From Salidesulfovibrio onnuriiensis (lineage in GTDB: Bacteria > Desulfobacterota > Desulfovibrionia > Desulfovibrionales > Desulfovibrionaceae): a stretch of 64,000 nucleotides of DNA. The stretch lies in contig NZ_CP040751.1 of NCBI RefSeq assembly GCF_008001235.1, positions 1,099,001-1,163,000 of the forward strand. Reading direction: 5' to 3'. Below, in pieces: positions 4,236 through 40,041 of this stretch. The notes below the pieces were generated by a model. The model ran no database searches. It was given only the letters and a program-made list of their open reading frames with translations, and was not told where the DNA came from. The position numbers were made by a program, and so were the translations under genes. The number at the start of each line of letters is the position of its first letter. Positions within the stretch are counted from its first letter, which is position 1.

Positions 4236-5012
4236 ATGACATCCCTTTCCCTCGCAAAAGAATCCCTCTCCCTGTTGTTGCGCAACCGCCTCATGACAGG
4301 CGCATACCTGCTGGCGTTCACCGCAGTCTATCTGCTGACCCTTCTGATTCCTTTTCACGATCACATGCCGTTTCTCGTCTCGGGGCTGGCAGGGGATCTG
4401 TTCAGTTTCCTGTTTCTGGCGCCGTTGGCGATCCTGTTCTACGGAAAACTGCTGTCCCGGTCCGGCGTGGAGAGCGGACACGCTCTGCTGCTGCGCAGGG
4501 CGCTGCTCTTCCTGGCCGGAATGTTTCTCATCAAGGTGATTTTCTGGCTGGGGGACGGGCTGCTCTCTGTGCTGGTTCCCTATCCCGAGGACATGGCCGA
4601 CGATGCCGCGTTCGAGCGCTACGACGCGGTTATGCGCACCAGTCGGTACGTACTCCAGGCCCTCTGCTGCCTGTGTTTCTCCCGGGTGGCGCTGTTCTTT
4701 CCGGCCCTGGCGCAAGGCGGCAAACGCCCGCTGGTACGCGCCTGGAAACGGGGACGCGGCCAGACGCTCGGGCTGTACCTCGGCCTGGCTGTCCTGGTGG
4801 TGCCGCTGGAAACAGTCAGTTACGTGCTGTTCGATCTGTATTGGGAGAGTCTCTTTCGCTGGACCGAATATTTCTTCCGCATCTCCGAAGACACCTTCTA
4901 CCTGCGCATGAACGCGGCGGGCGCGTTCATGAGCGCGCTCATGTTCATCCTGCTGGCCGGAGGGCTGTGCGCGGCGTATGCGGCAGTGGAGCAACAAAAG
5001 GACGACGCATGA
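4236..5012 (+). CDS. Multi-TM membrane protein, paralogue 3 of 4
   Basis: Inner-membrane protein of 258 aa with about six helices. It begins SLSLAKESLSLLLRNR before the first helix, nearly the same phrase as in the fourth paralogue, and carries the second motif SRVALFFPALA plus W-K-R-G. No convincing Shine-Dalgarno sequence precedes ATG 4236, which lies only 12 bases past a terminator T run, so the exact start is uncertain. Its stop overlaps the ATG of the fourth paralogue (ATGA), indicating coupled translation. Function unknown. Confidence 0.7.
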   Translation: MTSLSLAKESLSLLLRNRLMTGAYLLAFTAVYLLTLLIPFHDHMPFLVSGLAGDLFSFLFLAPLAILFYGKLLSRSGVESGHALLLRRALLFLAGMFLIKVIFWLGDGLLSVLVPYPEDMADDAAFERYDAVMRTSRYVLQALCCLCFSRVALFFPALAQGGKRPLVRAWKRGRGQTLGLYLGLAVLVVPLETVSYVLFDLYWESLFRWTEYFFRISEDTFYLRMNAAGAFMSALMFILLAGGLCAAYAAVEQQKDDA

Positions 5013-34713: not shown

Positions 34714-34743
34714 TTGACCTTCGGCCCCGGTCTTTGGTTATAT
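34714..34743 (+). promoter_or_regulatory. Promoter of nrdD copy 1
   Basis: TTGACC at 34714-34719, an 18-base spacer, TTATAT at 34738-34743. The transcript would begin about 15-20 bases before the cobalamin riboswitch. Confidence 0.55.
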
Positions 34744-34765
34744 TCTCCTGGTCAGAGCTTATTCA

Positions 34766-34931
34766 CTTCAGGTGGCGTTTCACGCCGTAACCAAGAGGGA
34801 ATCCGGTGAAAGTCCGGAGCGGTCCCGCCGCTGTAATCCCCGTATCAGTCCTGCTTGCGGAACCACTGCCGCAAGGCGGGAAGGAAAGCAGGATGGGGAG
34901 AGCCAGAAGACCTGCCTGAAGCATTTCCGAA
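34766..34931 (+). ncRNA. Cobalamin (B12) riboswitch, copy 1
   Basis: Aptamer bounded by a P1 stem CTTCAGG (34766-34772) and CCTGAAG (34925-34931). The core contains GGAATCCGGTGAAAGTCCGG followed by AGCGGTCCCGCCGCTGTAA, and the B12 box AGCCAGAAGACCTGCC at 34911-34926. The nrdD start is 154 bases further on with no intrinsic terminator visible between, so control may be translational or through a structure I cannot resolve. B12 is expected to lower expression of the downstream gene. Confidence 0.93.
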
Positions 34932-35085
34932 CGCGACGCAGTACGAGGATACTGCCTGCGGGCACGAAATATTTGCTAATCACAACGGCCACCCGGCCGG
35001 GCGGTTCCGCCGTCCTGTCCTCATCGATGGCCCAAAGCACGACATTGGGATTCACTCCTCGTGTCGTTTCGGAGTTTTTACTTAC

Positions 35086-37146
35086 ATGCCCAAACAGATT
35101 CTCAAGCGCGATGGCTGCATTGAAACCTGGTCCGTAGACCGCATCGCCGCCGCAGTTTTCAAGGCCCTCAAGGGCAGCGGCATCAAGGACCCCCTGCTTT
35201 CCAAGCGCCTGGCGCGCAAGGTGGAGGAGAAGCTCAAGGGAGTGGATGTCCCCGAGCAGGAGCAGGTGCAGGACATGGTCCAGCAGGTTCTCATGGAGGC
35301 CCGGCTCTACAAGGTGGCCGAGCGCTACATCATCTACCGCGAAAAGCGCCGCGAAATGCGCAAGCAGGACGAGACCTACATGGACGTCGCCGACATGGTG
35401 GACGCCTACCTGGACAACTCGGACTGGCGCGTGAGCGAAAACTCCAACATGGTTCACTCCTTTCAGGGCCTGATCCTGCACATGGCCGGATCGGTGCAGG
35501 CCCGCTACGTGCTGGAAAAGTATCCCGAGGAAATCCGGGACGCCCACAAGCACGGATACATGCACATCCACGACCTTTCCTTCGGCCTGGCCGGCTACTG
35601 CTCGGGCTGGAGCCTGCGCGACCTGCTGCTGGAAGGCTTCAACCTGCGCGACCGCTGCTGCTCGGCCCCGGCCCAGCACTTTGACGCCGCCTGCGGCCAG
35701 ATCGTCAACTTCCTGGGCACCCTGCAGAACGAATGGGCGGGCGCACAGGCCTTCAACAACGTGGACACCTACCTGGCTCCGTTCATCCGCCACGACGGCC
35801 TGACCTACGAAGAGGTCAAGCAGCAGATGCAGAAGCTGATCTTCAACCTGAACACCACGTCCCGCTGGGGCGGACAGAGCCCGTTCACCAACTTCACCTT
35901 CGACTTTGCGCCCCCGTCGCACATCGCCAACGAGCCCATCATCATCGGCGGCGCGTTCCAGGACTCCACCTACGGCGAATACGCCGAGGAAATGGCTATG
36001 ATCAACAGGGCCTTCCTGGAGGTCATGCTCGAAGGCGACGCGGACGGCCGCATCTTCTCCTTCCCCATTCCCACCTACAACGTGACCCCGGACTTCCCCT
36101 GGGAATCCGAGGCCGGGAAGCTGCTCCTGAAGATGACCGCCCGCTACGGCGCTCCCTACTTCCAGAACTTCATCAACTCGGATCTCAATCCCGAGGATGT
36201 GCGCTCCATGTGCTGCCGCCTCCAGATGGACCTGCGCGAGATCCGCAAGAAGACCGGCGGCCTGTTCGGCGCGGGCGACCTCACCGGCTCCATCGGCGTG
36301 GTCACCCTGAACCTGCCCAAGCTGGCCTACCTGGCCCACAATGAAGAGGACTTCCTGGACCTGATCACCGAATATTCGGAAATGGCGCGCGACTCCCTGG
36401 AGTACAAGCGCAAGATGGTCCAGCGCAGCCTGGATGCGGGCATGTTCCCGTTCTCCCGCCGCTACCTCAAGAACGGCTACAAGGGCCATTTCTCCACCAT
36501 CGGCGTCATCGGCGGCCACGAAGCCTGCATCAACCTGCTGGGCAAGGGCATCGAGACCGAGGCGGGCGTGCGGCTCATGCGCCGCGTGCTGCAGCACCTG
36601 CGCCGCATCATCGTCCGTTTCCAGGAAGAGACCGGCAACCTCTACAATCTGGAGGCCACCCCGGGCGAAGGCACCTGCTACCGTCTGGCCAAGATCGACA
36701 AGGAGCTTTACTCCGACATCGCCACCGCCGGGGACGAGGTGCCGTACTACACCAACTCCACGCTGCTGCCCGTGGGCATCACCACGGACGTGGTTTTCGC
36801 CCTGGAGCACCAGGACCAGCTTCAGACCCAGTACAACGGCGGCACCGTGTTCCACTCCTTCATCGGAGAGGCCGCCCCGGACGAGGAAAGCGTCAAGAGC
36901 TTCCTGATCAAGTCCATGACCAACACCAAGATCCCGTACATCTCCCTGACGCCGACCTTCTCCATCTGCGAGGAGCACGGCTACCTGGCGGGCGAGCACT
37001 TCAACTGCCCGCACTGCGACAAGGAGGCCGAGGTCTACACCCGCGTGGTGGGCTACTACCGCCCGGTGTCCCGCTGGAACAAGGGCAAGCGCGAGGAATA
37101 CAAGGAACGTTCCGAATATTCCATGGACTCTGTCTGCTGCGGATAA
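35086..37146 (+). CDS. nrdD: Anaerobic (class III) ribonucleoside-triphosphate reductase NrdD, copy 1
   Basis: Oxygen-sensitive glycyl-radical enzyme that makes deoxynucleotides, 686 aa. The amino-terminal ATP-cone (residues about 1-95: Q-I-L-K-R-D-G ... V-D-R-I) gives allosteric control. The glycyl radical site is R-V-V-G656-Y with the following R-P-V-x-x-W-N-x-G-K, and a cysteine-rich zinc site with C-P-H-C lies just upstream. The active-site cysteines are probably in S-M-C-C-R-L near 370. The activase NrdG is not in the window. ATG 35086 has GGAG upstream; codons further upstream belong to the riboswitch leader. It is controlled by a cobalamin riboswitch, which fits a B12-independent enzyme backing up a B12-dependent one elsewhere. 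Confidence 0.97.
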   Translation: MPKQILKRDGCIETWSVDRIAAAVFKALKGSGIKDPLLSKRLARKVEEKLKGVDVPEQEQVQDMVQQVLMEARLYKVAERYIIYREKRREMRKQDETYMDVADMVDAYLDNSDWRVSENSNMVHSFQGLILHMAGSVQARYVLEKYPEEIRDAHKHGYMHIHDLSFGLAGYCSGWSLRDLLLEGFNLRDRCCSAPAQHFDAACGQIVNFLGTLQNEWAGAQAFNNVDTYLAPFIRHDGLTYEEVKQQMQKLIFNLNTTSRWGGQSPFTNFTFDFAPPSHIANEPIIIGGAFQDSTYGEYAEEMAMINRAFLEVMLEGDADGRIFSFPIPTYNVTPDFPWESEAGKLLLKMTARYGAPYFQNFINSDLNPEDVRSMCCRLQMDLREIRKKTGGLFGAGDLTGSIGVVTLNLPKLAYLAHNEEDFLDLITEYSEMARDSLEYKRKMVQRSLDAGMFPFSRRYLKNGYKGHFSTIGVIGGHEACINLLGKGIETEAGVRLMRRVLQHLRRIIVRFQEETGNLYNLEATPGEGTCYRLAKIDKELYSDIATAGDEVPYYTNSTLLPVGITTDVVFALEHQDQLQTQYNGGTVFHSFIGEAAPDEESVKSFLIKSMTNTKIPYISLTPTFSICEEHGYLAGEHFNCPHCDKEAEVYTRVVGYYRPVSRWNKGKREEYKERSEYSMDSVCCG

Positions 37147-37196
37147 ACTGACAATGGCCCGGGGCGGTTTTGCCGTTCCGGGCTTTTTGGAGGCCC

Positions 37197-37433
37197 ATGA
37201 TACTCAACTCCAACCAGCTCAAGGCCCTGCAGCAGCGCAACGACGAGGAACTGCGCAAGGGGGAATACGCCAAGCACGGCTACCCCGCGCACACCATTCG
37301 CGACCTGCTGCAGACCGTGGAATCCATGAAACGCGAGAAGAAGAAGTGGAAGAAGCTGGCCCAGGAGCGGGGGCAGGCCCTGAAGACCATTCAGGAGATT
37401 GCCGAGAAGATGAACGGCTCCAACGGCGACTGA
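37197..37433 (+). CDS. Small coiled-coil-like hypothetical protein
   Basis: Protein of 78 aa, highly charged and predicted mostly helical: L-N-S-N-Q-L-K-A-L-Q-Q-R-N-D-E-E-L, then a K/E-rich helix (KREKKKWKKLAQERGQALK). GGAGG lies five bases before ATG 37197. It sits 50 bases after nrdD copy 1 and before a strong terminator, so it shares the riboswitch-controlled transcript. It has no counterpart after copy 2. Function unknown. Confidence 0.75.
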   Translation: MILNSNQLKALQQRNDEELRKGEYAKHGYPAHTIRDLLQTVESMKREKKKWKKLAQERGQALKTIQEIAEKMNGSNGD

Positions 37434-37457
37434 ACACGCGCTTCTTATATGCATCAC

Positions 37458-37503
37458 AGGCTCCCGCACCGTTTGTTTCAGACGGTGCGGGAGCCTTTTT
37501 TTT
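37458..37503 (+). terminator. Rho-independent terminator of nrdD copy 1 unit
   Basis: Perfect 15-base-pair stem AGGCTCCCGCACCGT and its complement, nine-base loop, followed by eight T. Confidence 0.95.
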
Positions 37504-37537
37504 GTTGTAATATCAAAGAATTAAATAAAATTATCGA

Positions 37538-37565
37538 TTGACCTGTGTTTATTTGCGCGTATAAT
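37538..37565 (+). promoter_or_regulatory. Promoter of nrdD copy 2
   Basis: TTGACC at 37538-37543, a 16-base spacer, perfect TATAAT at 37560-37565. The start would fall at about 37572, just before the second riboswitch. One of the best promoters in the window. Confidence 0.8.
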
Positions 37566-37583
37566 ACGATGCGTAAAGAGCCA

Positions 37584-37723
37584 ACTTTTGGCGGCGTTCG
37601 TCCATCCATGTCGGACGCCATCAGGAAATCCGGTGCAACCCCGGAGCGGTCCCGCCACTGTGAATTGCGGTCAAAACCCTGGAAAATGGATTTGCCGCGA
37701 AAGCCAGAAGCCCTGCCAGAAGT
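37584..37723 (+). ncRNA. Cobalamin (B12) riboswitch, copy 2
   Basis: P1 stem ACTTTTGGC (37584-37592) with GCCAGAAGT (37715-37723). Core GGAAATCCGGTGCAACCCCGG then AGCGGTCCCGCCACTGTGA, and B12 box AGCCAGAAGCCCTGCC at 37703-37718. Shares the layout of copy 1 but is shorter between core and B12 box. After both aptamers a similar TACGAGGAT-x-CxGCCT stretch occurs and may be part of the expression platform. Confidence 0.92.
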
Positions 37724-37893
37724 ATTTCCCCGCCGACGCGGTACGAGGATGCCGCCTCAGGCTGCGAAACATCTTTTCCCTTCACCGGCCATGGGTCGAG
37801 CGGTGCGGCCGCCCGACAAGACAGCATGGCCCCCTTGCGACACAGAAAGCGCATGACTTGTTGCGCCTGGTGTCGTTTTCGGAGTTTTCTTAC

Positions 37894-39954
37894 ATGCCTC
37901 AACAGATTCTCAAACGTGACGGACGCATGGAAACATGGTCCACGGACCGCATTGCAGGAGCCATTTTCAAGGCCCTGAAAAGCAGCGACATCAAGGATCC
38001 CCTCCTGGCCAAACGGCTGGCCGGCAAGGTGGAGGACAGACTCGGGGACGCGGAAATTCCCGAGCAGGAGCAGGTGCAGGACACGGTCCAGCAGGTGCTC
38101 ATGGAGGCCCGGCTTTACCGGGTGGCCGAGCGCTACATCATCTATCGCGAAAAACGTCGTGAACTCAGAAGGCAGGACATGACCTACATGGACGTGGCCG
38201 GCACCGTGGACGCCTACCTGGATAACTCGGACTGGCGGGTGAACGAGAATTCCAACATGGTTCACTCCTTCCAGGGCCTGATCCTGCACATGGCCGGATC
38301 GGTGCAGGCCCGCTACGTACTGGACAAGTATCCCGTGGAGATCCGCGACGCACACACCCACGGCTACATGCACATTCACGACCTCTCCTTCGGCCTGGCC
38401 GGATACTGCTCGGGCTGGAGCCTGCGCGACCTGCTGCTGGAAGGCTTCAACCTGCCGGGCCGGTGCAGTTCCGCCCCGGCCAACCACTTTGACGCGGCCT
38501 GCGGCCAGATCGTCAACTTCCTGGGCACGCTGCAGAACGAATGGGCGGGCGCACAGGCCTTCAACAACGTGGACACCTACCTGGCTCCGTTTATCCGCCA
38601 CGACGGCCTCAACCACGAAGAAGTCAAGCAGCAGATGCAGAAGCTGCTTTTCAACCTGAACACCACGTCCCGCTGGGGCGGTCAGAGCCCGTTCACCAAC
38701 TTCACCTTCGACTTTGCTCCACCGGCCCACATGGCCAACGAGCCCATCATCATAGGCGGTGCGTTCCAGGATTCCACCTACGGCGAATATGCCGAGGAAA
38801 TGGCCATGATCAACAGGGCCTTCCTGGAAGTCATGCTCGAAGGCGATGCGGACGGGCGCATCTTCTCCTTCCCCATCCCCACCTACAACGTGACCGAGGA
38901 TTTCCCTTGGGAAACCGGTCCGGGCAGCCTGCTGCTAAAACTCACGGCCCGGTACGGCGCGCCCAACTTCCAGAACTTCATCAACTCGGATCTCAATCCC
39001 GAGGACGTGCGCTCCATGTGCTGCCGCCTGCGCATGGACCTGCGCGAGATCCGCAAGAAGACCGGCGGCCTGTTCGGCGCGGGCGACCTCACCGGCTCCA
39101 TCGGCGTGGTCACCCTGAATCTGCCCAAGCTGGCCTACCTGGCGCACAATGAAGAGGATTTTTTGGACCAAATCACCGAGTATGCGGAAATGGCGCGCGA
39201 CTCCCTGGAGTACAAGCGCAAGATGGTCCAGCGCAGCCTGGATGCGGGCATGTTCCCGTTCTCCCGCCGCTACCTCAAGAATGGCTACAAGGGCCATTTC
39301 TCCACCATCGGCGTCATCGGCGGGCATGAGGCCTGCCTGAACCTGCTGGGCAAGGGCATCGAGACCGAGGCGGGCATCCGCCTCATGCGCAGAGTCCTCA
39401 AGCATCTGGGCGGGCTCATTGCCCGATTCCAGGAGGAAACCGGCAACCTCTACAACCTGGAAGCCACCCCGGGCGAAGGGACCTGCTACCGTCTGGCCAA
39501 GATCGACAGACAACTCTATGCGGACATCGTCACCGCAGGCGGCGACATGCCCTACTACACCAACTCAACGCTGCTGCCCGTGGGCATCACCACGGACATA
39601 CTCTTCGCCCTGGAGCATCAGGACCAGTTGCAAACTCTGTACAACGGGGGCACGGCGTTCCATTCCTTCATCGGCGAGGCCGCCCCGGACGAGGAAAGCG
39701 TCAAGAGCTTTCTGATCAAGGCCATGACCCACACTAAGATCCCGTCCATATCGCTCACGCCCACCTTCTCCATCTGCGAGGAGCATGGCTACCTGGCGGG
39801 CGAGCACTTCAACTGCCCGCATTGCGGCAAGGAGGCCGAGGTCTACACCCGCGTGGTGGGCTACTACCGCCCGGTGTCCCGCTGGAACAAGGGCAAGCGC
39901 CGGGAATACGAAGAACGCACTGAATATTCCATGGAATCTGTCTGCTGCGGATAA
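37894..39954 (+). CDS. nrdD: Anaerobic (class III) ribonucleoside-triphosphate reductase NrdD, copy 2
   Basis: Second 686-aa NrdD, co-linear with copy 1 and nearly identical over long stretches. Differences concentrate in the ATP-cone (for example R-L-G-D-A-E-I against K-L-K-G-V-D-V) and in scattered surface positions. All catalytic parts are kept: S-M-C-C-R-L, the C-P-H-C zinc site and R-V-V-G656-Y-Y-R-P-V. The codons upstream of ATG 37894 belong to the leader; GGAG lies nine bases before the ATG. It has its own promoter, riboswitch and terminator, so the whole unit was duplicated rather than the reading frame alone. Confidence 0.97.
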   Translation: MPQQILKRDGRMETWSTDRIAGAIFKALKSSDIKDPLLAKRLAGKVEDRLGDAEIPEQEQVQDTVQQVLMEARLYRVAERYIIYREKRRELRRQDMTYMDVAGTVDAYLDNSDWRVNENSNMVHSFQGLILHMAGSVQARYVLDKYPVEIRDAHTHGYMHIHDLSFGLAGYCSGWSLRDLLLEGFNLPGRCSSAPANHFDAACGQIVNFLGTLQNEWAGAQAFNNVDTYLAPFIRHDGLNHEEVKQQMQKLLFNLNTTSRWGGQSPFTNFTFDFAPPAHMANEPIIIGGAFQDSTYGEYAEEMAMINRAFLEVMLEGDADGRIFSFPIPTYNVTEDFPWETGPGSLLLKLTARYGAPNFQNFINSDLNPEDVRSMCCRLRMDLREIRKKTGGLFGAGDLTGSIGVVTLNLPKLAYLAHNEEDFLDQITEYAEMARDSLEYKRKMVQRSLDAGMFPFSRRYLKNGYKGHFSTIGVIGGHEACLNLLGKGIETEAGIRLMRRVLKHLGGLIARFQEETGNLYNLEATPGEGTCYRLAKIDRQLYADIVTAGGDMPYYTNSTLLPVGITTDILFALEHQDQLQTLYNGGTAFHSFIGEAAPDEESVKSFLIKAMTHTKIPSISLTPTFSICEEHGYLAGEHFNCPHCGKEAEVYTRVVGYYRPVSRWNKGKRREYEERTEYSMESVCCG

Positions 39955-40006: not shown

Positions 40007-40041
40007 AAAGGCCCCTGCCGCATTGTGCGGCAGGGGCCTTT
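40007..40041. terminator. Bidirectional terminator
   Basis: Perfect 16-base-pair stem AAAGGCCCCTGCCGCA and its complement with a three-base loop, T-rich on the right (TTTTCTTTC). Lies between convergent nrdD copy 2 and the sensor kinase. Confidence 0.93.

Follow-up and report, generated by a model that had tools for sequence, protein, structure and literature searches.

Two diverged cobalamin riboswitch-nrdD units in tandem in Salidesulfovibrio onnuriiensis

Introduction

For Desulfovibrio vulgaris, a B12 element located before the class III ribonucleotide reductase genes nrdD(G), together with a preference for the class II enzyme NrdJ in the presence of B12, was proposed in 2004 (PMC545781). 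In Propionibacterium acnes, cobalamin riboswitches precede both nrdDG and nrdAB (PMC3848588), and one has been described before nrdD of a Chlorobium (PMC8620254). We analysed a 64,000-nucleotide stretch of the Salidesulfovibrio onnuriiensis genome (contig NZ_CP040751.1, positions 1,099,001 to 1,163,000), called the window below, in which two nrdD genes, coding for an oxygen-sensitive enzyme of DNA precursor synthesis and each preceded by its own cobalamin riboswitch, lie one after the other. The single riboswitch-nrdD unit is already known, and the diverged tandem pair is the new part; no report of such a pair was found among the titles and abstract starts listed in keyword searches of open-licence papers. 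With a probability of about 0.5, we read the pair as a lineage-specific tandem duplication of a B12-riboswitch nrdD unit, in which both leaders would be off-switches and copy 2 would answer over a different range or strength of cobalamin.

Results

The window is part of a 3.89-Mb single-contig genome, the nearest named relatives of which are Desulfovibrionaceae records, including Pseudodesulfovibrio. A sequence-only reading of the window had claimed two equally long and very similar nrdD genes in tandem. This was borne out: the encoded proteins, both of 686 residues, are identical at 613 positions (89%) and align without gaps, and the genes are arranged head to tail. Both proteins exceed the cut-off of the NCBIfam model TIGR02487 (535.7 and 521.1 bits for copies 1 and 2; cut-off 326.35) and pass Pfam PF13597 and PF03477, the ATP-cone. 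At the C-terminus of each there are RVVGYY and C..C motifs, which align with solved NrdDs and which we take to be the glycyl radical and zinc sites. The copies differ at approximately 11% of the coding bases, and also in the leaders and flanks, which rules out an assembly artefact. Thus, the tandem arrangement of two riboswitch-nrdD units is real (Table 1).

Scanning the whole window with Rfam at gathering thresholds gave two matches. Both are to the cobalamin family (RF00174, cut-off 31.5 bits), one in each nrdD leader, as had been predicted along with their different lengths. The aptamer of copy 1 matches the model positions of the P8-P12 extension, which is the criterion for class I, the adenosylcobalamin (AdoCbl) type (PMC11260477). 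The aptamer of copy 2 skips 33 model positions of this extension, with one base instead of them, and by the same criterion is not class I. In contrast, its P2 has eight pairs versus five in copy 1, with the pairs set by us. The B12 box of copy 1 has the majority form, and the changed base in the box of copy 2 falls in the J6/3 stretch according to our reading of the Rfam structure line. Minimum-energy folding gave no aptamer fold for copy 2 and was not used as evidence.

In riboswitches of this class, the L5-L13 kissing loop and P13 become more stable once the ligand is bound (PMC10653944). The L5 sequence UCCCG and the L13 sequence CGAGGA are identical in the two copies and, by eye, can pair with one bulge. 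If G-U pairs are counted, all eight pairs of P1 and all six pairs of P13 form in both copies, and two of the differences between the copies are compensatory, one A-U/U-A in P1 and one A-U/G-C in P13. We evaluated P13 in leaders of type A genes, which encode NrdDs like copy 1, in contrast to type B, which are like the third NrdD of the genome described below. In 33 leaders selected among the 40 type A leaders that have an L13, 87.2% of the cells were paired versus 70.1% in shuffles; both-side changes were seen at eight of the nine pairs (3/500 shuffles as high). When the P13 partner was slid along the sequence, pairing fell to 28-39%.

Short nrdD aptamers are also found in two near relatives, G148 (51.7 bits) and G212, locus L025 (57.4 bits), as their only type A switch. 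In the tree, copy 2, copy 1 and the gene of locus L024 from another relative form a group to which these two relatives do not belong, and the long form is found in both copy 1 and L024. The P6 extension was therefore probably lost more than once.

Table 1. Features of the two nrdD units, with positions counted from the first base of the window
Feature	Position	Strand	Basis
Promoter-like pair, copy 1: TTGACC, spacer 19, TATATT	34714..34744	+	Read from sequence; absent from the promoter scan list
Cobalamin riboswitch aptamer, copy 1 (long, P6 extension present)	34753..34933	+	RF00174, 95.6 bits, E 1.5e-22
P13 stem, copy 1; L13 loop CGAGGA at 34944-34949, partner of L5 (within 34819-34829)	34938..34955	+	
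Short helix before the ribosome-binding site, copy 1 (arms 35039-35045 and 35061-35067)	35039..35067	+	10/20 shuffles as good
nrdD copy 1, 686 aa	35086..37146 (stop included)	+	Model matches and pairwise alignment
Small gene, 78 aa, regular companion of type A nrdD	37197..37433	+	Relatives' loci; 70 proteins
Terminator-like hairpin after the small gene	37458..37496	+	Terminator scan
Promoter-like pair, copy 2: TTGACC, spacer 16, TATAAT	37538..37565	+	Promoter scan
Cobalamin riboswitch aptamer, copy 2, without P6 extension, with longer P2 and changed B12-box base 37711	37572..37734	+	RF00174, 51.9 bits, E 4.7e-10
P13 stem, copy 2; L13 loop CGAGGA at 37744-37749, partner of L5 (within 37646-37656)	37738..37755	+	
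Short helix before the ribosome-binding site, copy 2 (arms 37837-37843 and 37870-37876)	37837..37876	+	Read from sequence; 15/20 shuffles as good
nrdD copy 2, 686 aa	37894..39954 (stop included)	+	Model matches and pairwise alignment
Terminator-like hairpin after copy 2	40007..40041	+	Terminator scan

A search of the genome revealed the other reductase genes. The class II enzyme NrdJ is encoded by a single PF02867 gene of 746 aa (NrdJ_Z, TIGR02504, 722.6 bits, cut-off 399.95), and nrdJ matches are present in 36/36 genomes of a genus sample that includes this genome; in a few of these, the match is confined to fragments or split frames. PF13597 has three matches. Two are the tandem copies; the remaining one, called the third nrdD, is at C1:3299013-3301049, has no riboswitch and lies directly downstream of the only NrdG gene over the cut-off. 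The sole NrdG over the cut-off is thus encoded elsewhere in the genome, and the claim that no nrdG lies near the pair holds. Control by NrdR was rejected, as the repressor model TIGR00244 has no match in the genome (G000); the control detected NrdR in 9/14 known genomes. At least four cobalamin riboswitches are present in the genome (150 of 312 candidates scored). The third of them precedes a TonB-dependent receptor gene with CbiS-like and BtuF-like genes, and the fourth precedes a run of CbiK-like, BtuC-like, BtuD-like (by eye), BtuF-like and CbiL genes; among these models, only CbiL was over its cut-off.

We compared the pair with nrdD loci of relatives. The 80 loci from named genomes comprise 20 of type A, without nrdG in the locus, and 60 of type B, with nrdG within about 700 bases upstream in 60/60. 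None of these 80 loci contains a second nrdD in the flanks, which extend up to 6 kb and often less. An Rfam cobalamin match lies just upstream of nrdD in 17 of the 20 type A loci. The genus sample contains 32 full-length type A genes in 31 genomes. With about 50 riboswitch candidates scored in each genome, a riboswitch was found within 1 kb upstream of 31/32 of these genes versus 0/31 full-length type B genes. It turned out that only one of the 36 genus genomes, the window's own, has a tandem nrdD pair. In the wider family, 190 of 199 genomes had a match, with no other tandem pair among the matches listed.

Several type A loci deserve separate mention. The sole miss among the 32 genes belongs to a Salidesulfovibrio brasiliensis contig (L027, G199), where no cobalamin riboswitch is detectable upstream of the type A nrdD. 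Another form of the B12 box, GCCAGCC..., with a weak Rfam score or none, occurs in L030, L032, L033, L041 and similar type A leaders, several of them from Halodesulfovibrio; these leaders are possibly a different aptamer subtype. In L036 (8358-11061) and L031 (2173-4647), the riboswitch-nrdD unit adjoins another cobalamin riboswitch that precedes metE, the gene of the B12-independent methionine synthase, so that each locus is a cluster of B12-independent isozymes. A second riboswitch-nrdD unit that is independent of the window pair was found in L163 (G128:C1, 4418-7531, riboswitch 4418-4597). Its nrdD matches residues 1-545 only and is followed by a transposase gene (DDE_Tnp_1), and the unit adjoins a TonB-receptor-like gene with its own riboswitch.

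The small gene located after copy 1 had been noted as present there only. The gene is indeed there; the frame containing it, scanned from position 37170, has no Pfam or NCBIfam match, and a protein search found 70 proteins, itself included. It was matched in 36/49 other type A loci versus 0/60 type B loci, several of these loci being the same gene fetched twice, and it is mostly found just after nrdD (about 4 kb away in L030). Being a regular companion of type A nrdD in relatives, it is missing from copy 2 rather than peculiar to copy 1. The 78-aa protein may belong to the function of type A NrdD.

Each copy had also been assigned its own promoter and terminator. Promoter-like pairs are located as claimed, with a TATAAT -10 element in copy 2, and the terminator-like hairpins are the longest stems of the terminator scan, though the first of them follows the small gene and not copy 1 directly. 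Neither scan of the region was above chance: one promoter was found versus a shuffle mean of 1.3, and seven terminators versus a mean of 6.3. Since this is so, we assign these elements by their position and, for copy 1, by the TTGAC and TATATT words that also occur in L024.

Between the aptamer and the start codon, no intrinsic terminator was listed on the + strand by the terminator scan in either leader, and therefore intrinsic termination is not favoured as the switch. For 42 leaders (40 type A and, by chance, two type B), we determined the best helix that joins the region following P13 to the last 40 bases upstream of the start codon; it was longer than in shuffles (mean score 7.84 versus 6.59, standard deviation 1.14). 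In many members of the genus, a start-proximal helix joins about -70 to about -13, and its sequence differs between species. The short helix of copy 2 in Table 1 has a score equal to that of the helix reported for this copy by our helix script. These data fit translational control, with or without Rho.

Using codon comparisons, we assessed constraint on the copies. Nonsynonymous and synonymous divergence (dN/dS) was 0.058/0.363 between copies 1 and 2, 0.028/0.318 between copy 1 and L024, and 0.063/0.508 between copy 2 and L024. Of the 77 changes specific to the copy 2 lineage, 38 are at third positions, which exceeds the neutral expectation of one third (p 0.004). At first and second positions, copy 2 has 39 changes, whereas the path to copy 1 has 20 (p 0.018). 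The codon-position make-up of copy 2 does not differ significantly from that of copy 1 plus L024 (p 0.23). The GC content at third codon positions (GC3) is 0.837 in copy 2 versus 0.902 in copy 1. Copy 1 alone has three changes at invariant positions, all of them mild. Differences between the copies in the ATP-cone were confirmed: copy 2 has Arg11 and Arg93, and copy 1 has Cys and Lys. In our reading of the alignment, the two arginines match Arg11 and Arg91 of the P. copri NrdD. In that enzyme, both residues make contacts across the cones, Arg11 with the nucleotide of the partner cone and Arg91 through a salt bridge to the partner cone (PMC11226230). Arg11 is also found in 6/34 other type A rows (36 rows were aligned, two of them being copy 2). 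Judged by codon and residue patterns, copy 2 is a gene under purifying selection with real changes, and altered and lowered activity are both possible.

In the tree, copy 2 branches outside copy 1 and L024, with support of 94/91 for the three and 93/61 for copy 1 plus L024. Derived sites are shared by copies 1 and 2 at 20 positions, by copy 1 and L024 at 25, and by copy 2 and L024 at 10; these patterns conflict and give no date for the duplication. The shared sites form runs, the longest being 8 for copies 1 and 2 (p 0.015) and 13 for copy 1 and L024 (p 0.009). This suggests that the coding regions are a mosaic with exchange between the copies. Conversion of the copy 2 N-terminus from the third nrdD was ruled out, since copy 2 is closer to the latter than copy 1 only in the first of six 60-base windows (0.75 vs 0.72). 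In L024, the small gene lies between nrdD and the genes that follow copy 2 in the window, and there is no second nrdD. This gene order points to one of two histories: loss of copy 2 from L024, or its addition in the interval that separates the small gene from the sensor kinase gene.

Discussion

The preferred reading implies the following mechanism. In each leader, cobalamin binding would favour the L5-L13 kissing loop and P13, and this structure would close the ribosome-binding region or expose the RNA to Rho. NrdD would then be made when B12 is too scarce for NrdJ, and the NrdG encoded elsewhere would activate both copies. Copy 2 differs in its promoter, in its remodelled aptamer and in the faster evolution of its enzyme, and it would most likely answer over a different range or strength of cobalamin than copy 1. 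Ligand binding, the direction of control and the level on which it acts are inferences, as are the role of this NrdG and the difference in response between the copies. Since the genome has NrdJ, NrdG, a third nrdD without a riboswitch and no NrdR match, the idea that nrdD is off while B12 lets NrdJ work is well motivated. The sequence-only reading had already proposed this repression, and the Rfam matches in both leaders, the presence of NrdJ throughout the genus sample and the printed precedents (PMC545781, PMC3848588) speak for it. The preferred reading is further favoured by the riboswitches before nearly all type A and none of the type B genes of the genus, the L5, L13, P1 and P13 elements kept in both copies, the covariation of P13, the riboswitch-metE units beside riboswitch-nrdD in two relatives and the constraint on copy 2. 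It does not extend to the third nrdD: as the nrdG-linked one of three nrdD genes has no riboswitch, B12 would not close all class III capacity. The aptamers differ in ways that could alter the response, and it is plausible that the copies answer to different B12 or dNTP (deoxynucleoside triphosphate) ranges, as the sequence-only reading had suggested.

Several observations weigh against this interpretation, among them the nrdG-linked gene just mentioned. Three of the 20 type A loci (L027, L030 and L032) have no Rfam match upstream of nrdD; the leaders of L030 and L032 still carry riboswitch core words. L13 was not found by our rule in 15/55 distinct type A leaders, so that the covariation of P13 concerns a part of type A, which includes the window. 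The start-codon helices of the window copies are shorter and nearer than those of the genus, and each alone is within chance. The aptamer of copy 2 scores 51.9 bits versus 95.6 for copy 1 and is without the extension, and at base 37711 it is the only one with C among 42 distinct pattern-matched B12 boxes (A in 40, T in one). Compared with 34 other type A proteins, copy 2 alone has E148V, Y358N, Q380R, R506G, V588A and Y618S.

These features of copy 2 can be explained in other ways. It is possible, though rather unlikely in our view, that the second copy serves only to provide more NrdD when B12 is short; its aptamer would then have changed no further than the family tolerates and would respond like the first. 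The P6 accessory region is highly variable in length among cobalamin riboswitches (PMC9600662), the short aptamers of G148 and G212 serve as sole type A switches, and parts of the coding sequence appear to have been exchanged between the copies, which would keep the enzymes alike. Against a mere dosage effect, the copies differ jointly in the spacing of the promoter words, the shape of the aptamer, a base of the B12 box and the rate of protein change. Relaxed selection on a duplicate that is being lost would explain the doubled first- and second-position changes, the lower GC3 and the six changes at positions that are invariant elsewhere. Two of these positions, R506 and Y618, are also occupied by Arg and Tyr in the chains of T. 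maritima and P. copri in our reading of the alignment. The truncated second type A copy beside a transposase gene in G128 indicates that extra copies do get lost. We nevertheless consider decay doubtful, because the frame of copy 2 is open and of full length, its dN is well below its dS to both copy 1 and L024, third positions are over-represented among its changes, the contrast with copy 1 plus L024 is not significant, and the pairs of its leader are kept by compensatory change.

Acquisition of copy 2 from an unsampled relative, with insertion beside the resident unit, would agree with its position outside copy 1 plus L024, with its larger dS to L024 (0.508 vs 0.318 for copy 1) and with the lack of any trace of it in L024. 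No donor was seen: in the protein search (120 proteins listed, 7999 candidates scored), copy 2 is alone in its cluster and the nearest other protein to it is copy 1 (89%), and the shared derived sites are mixed. Acquisition is thus improbable. A bolder version of the preferred reading, which we regard as unlikely, is a two-channel B12 gauge in which copy 1 would have a class I-type switch and copy 2 a reduced, class II-like aptamer for another cobalamin form or level, with an enzyme whose dNTP set point would differ, given Arg11 and Arg93 in its ATP-cone and its six changed invariant residues. If this were true, sensor and enzyme of one riboswitch unit would both have been split by a single duplication.

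Because one riboswitch-gene unit was duplicated within one genome, a single cell allows the comparison of an older-type and a remodelled switch, each with its matching gene. This offers a clean test of aptamer tolerance to the loss of the P6 extension and to the base change in the B12 box, and a test of whether duplicated riboswitches split their response. More broadly, these sulfate reducers keep a B12-switched NrdD beside an unswitched nrdG-linked NrdD and NrdJ, with no recognisable NrdR in the genome studied.

Among known systems, the units of D. vulgaris and Desulfuromonas (PMC545781) are like those of the window in having a cobalamin riboswitch before a class III reductase, NrdJ in the genome and a proposed off-switch logic; in the available part of that source they are single, whereas the window has two diverged units in tandem. 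The cases of P. acnes and Chlorobium likewise place B12-independent reductases behind cobalamin riboswitches, but they concern other reductase operons, and the available parts of PMC3848588 and PMC8620254 describe no tandem duplicate of one unit. The ppe2 riboswitch, a proposed class IIb variant from M. tuberculosis, shares with copy 2 the absence of the P8-P12 extension and of UCU in J6/3; gene and host are different, and the likeness is one of features (PMC11260477). Within the genus, the second unit of G128 is also an extra whole riboswitch-nrdD unit, but it lies elsewhere in the genome, not in tandem, and is truncated after residue 545, next to the transposase gene. Tandem riboswitches for one ligand (PMC9481103) resemble the window in that more than one cobalamin switch lies close together on the chromosome. 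As far as described in that source, they sit in one leader or between neighbouring genes, whereas in the window each switch has its own copy of the gene.

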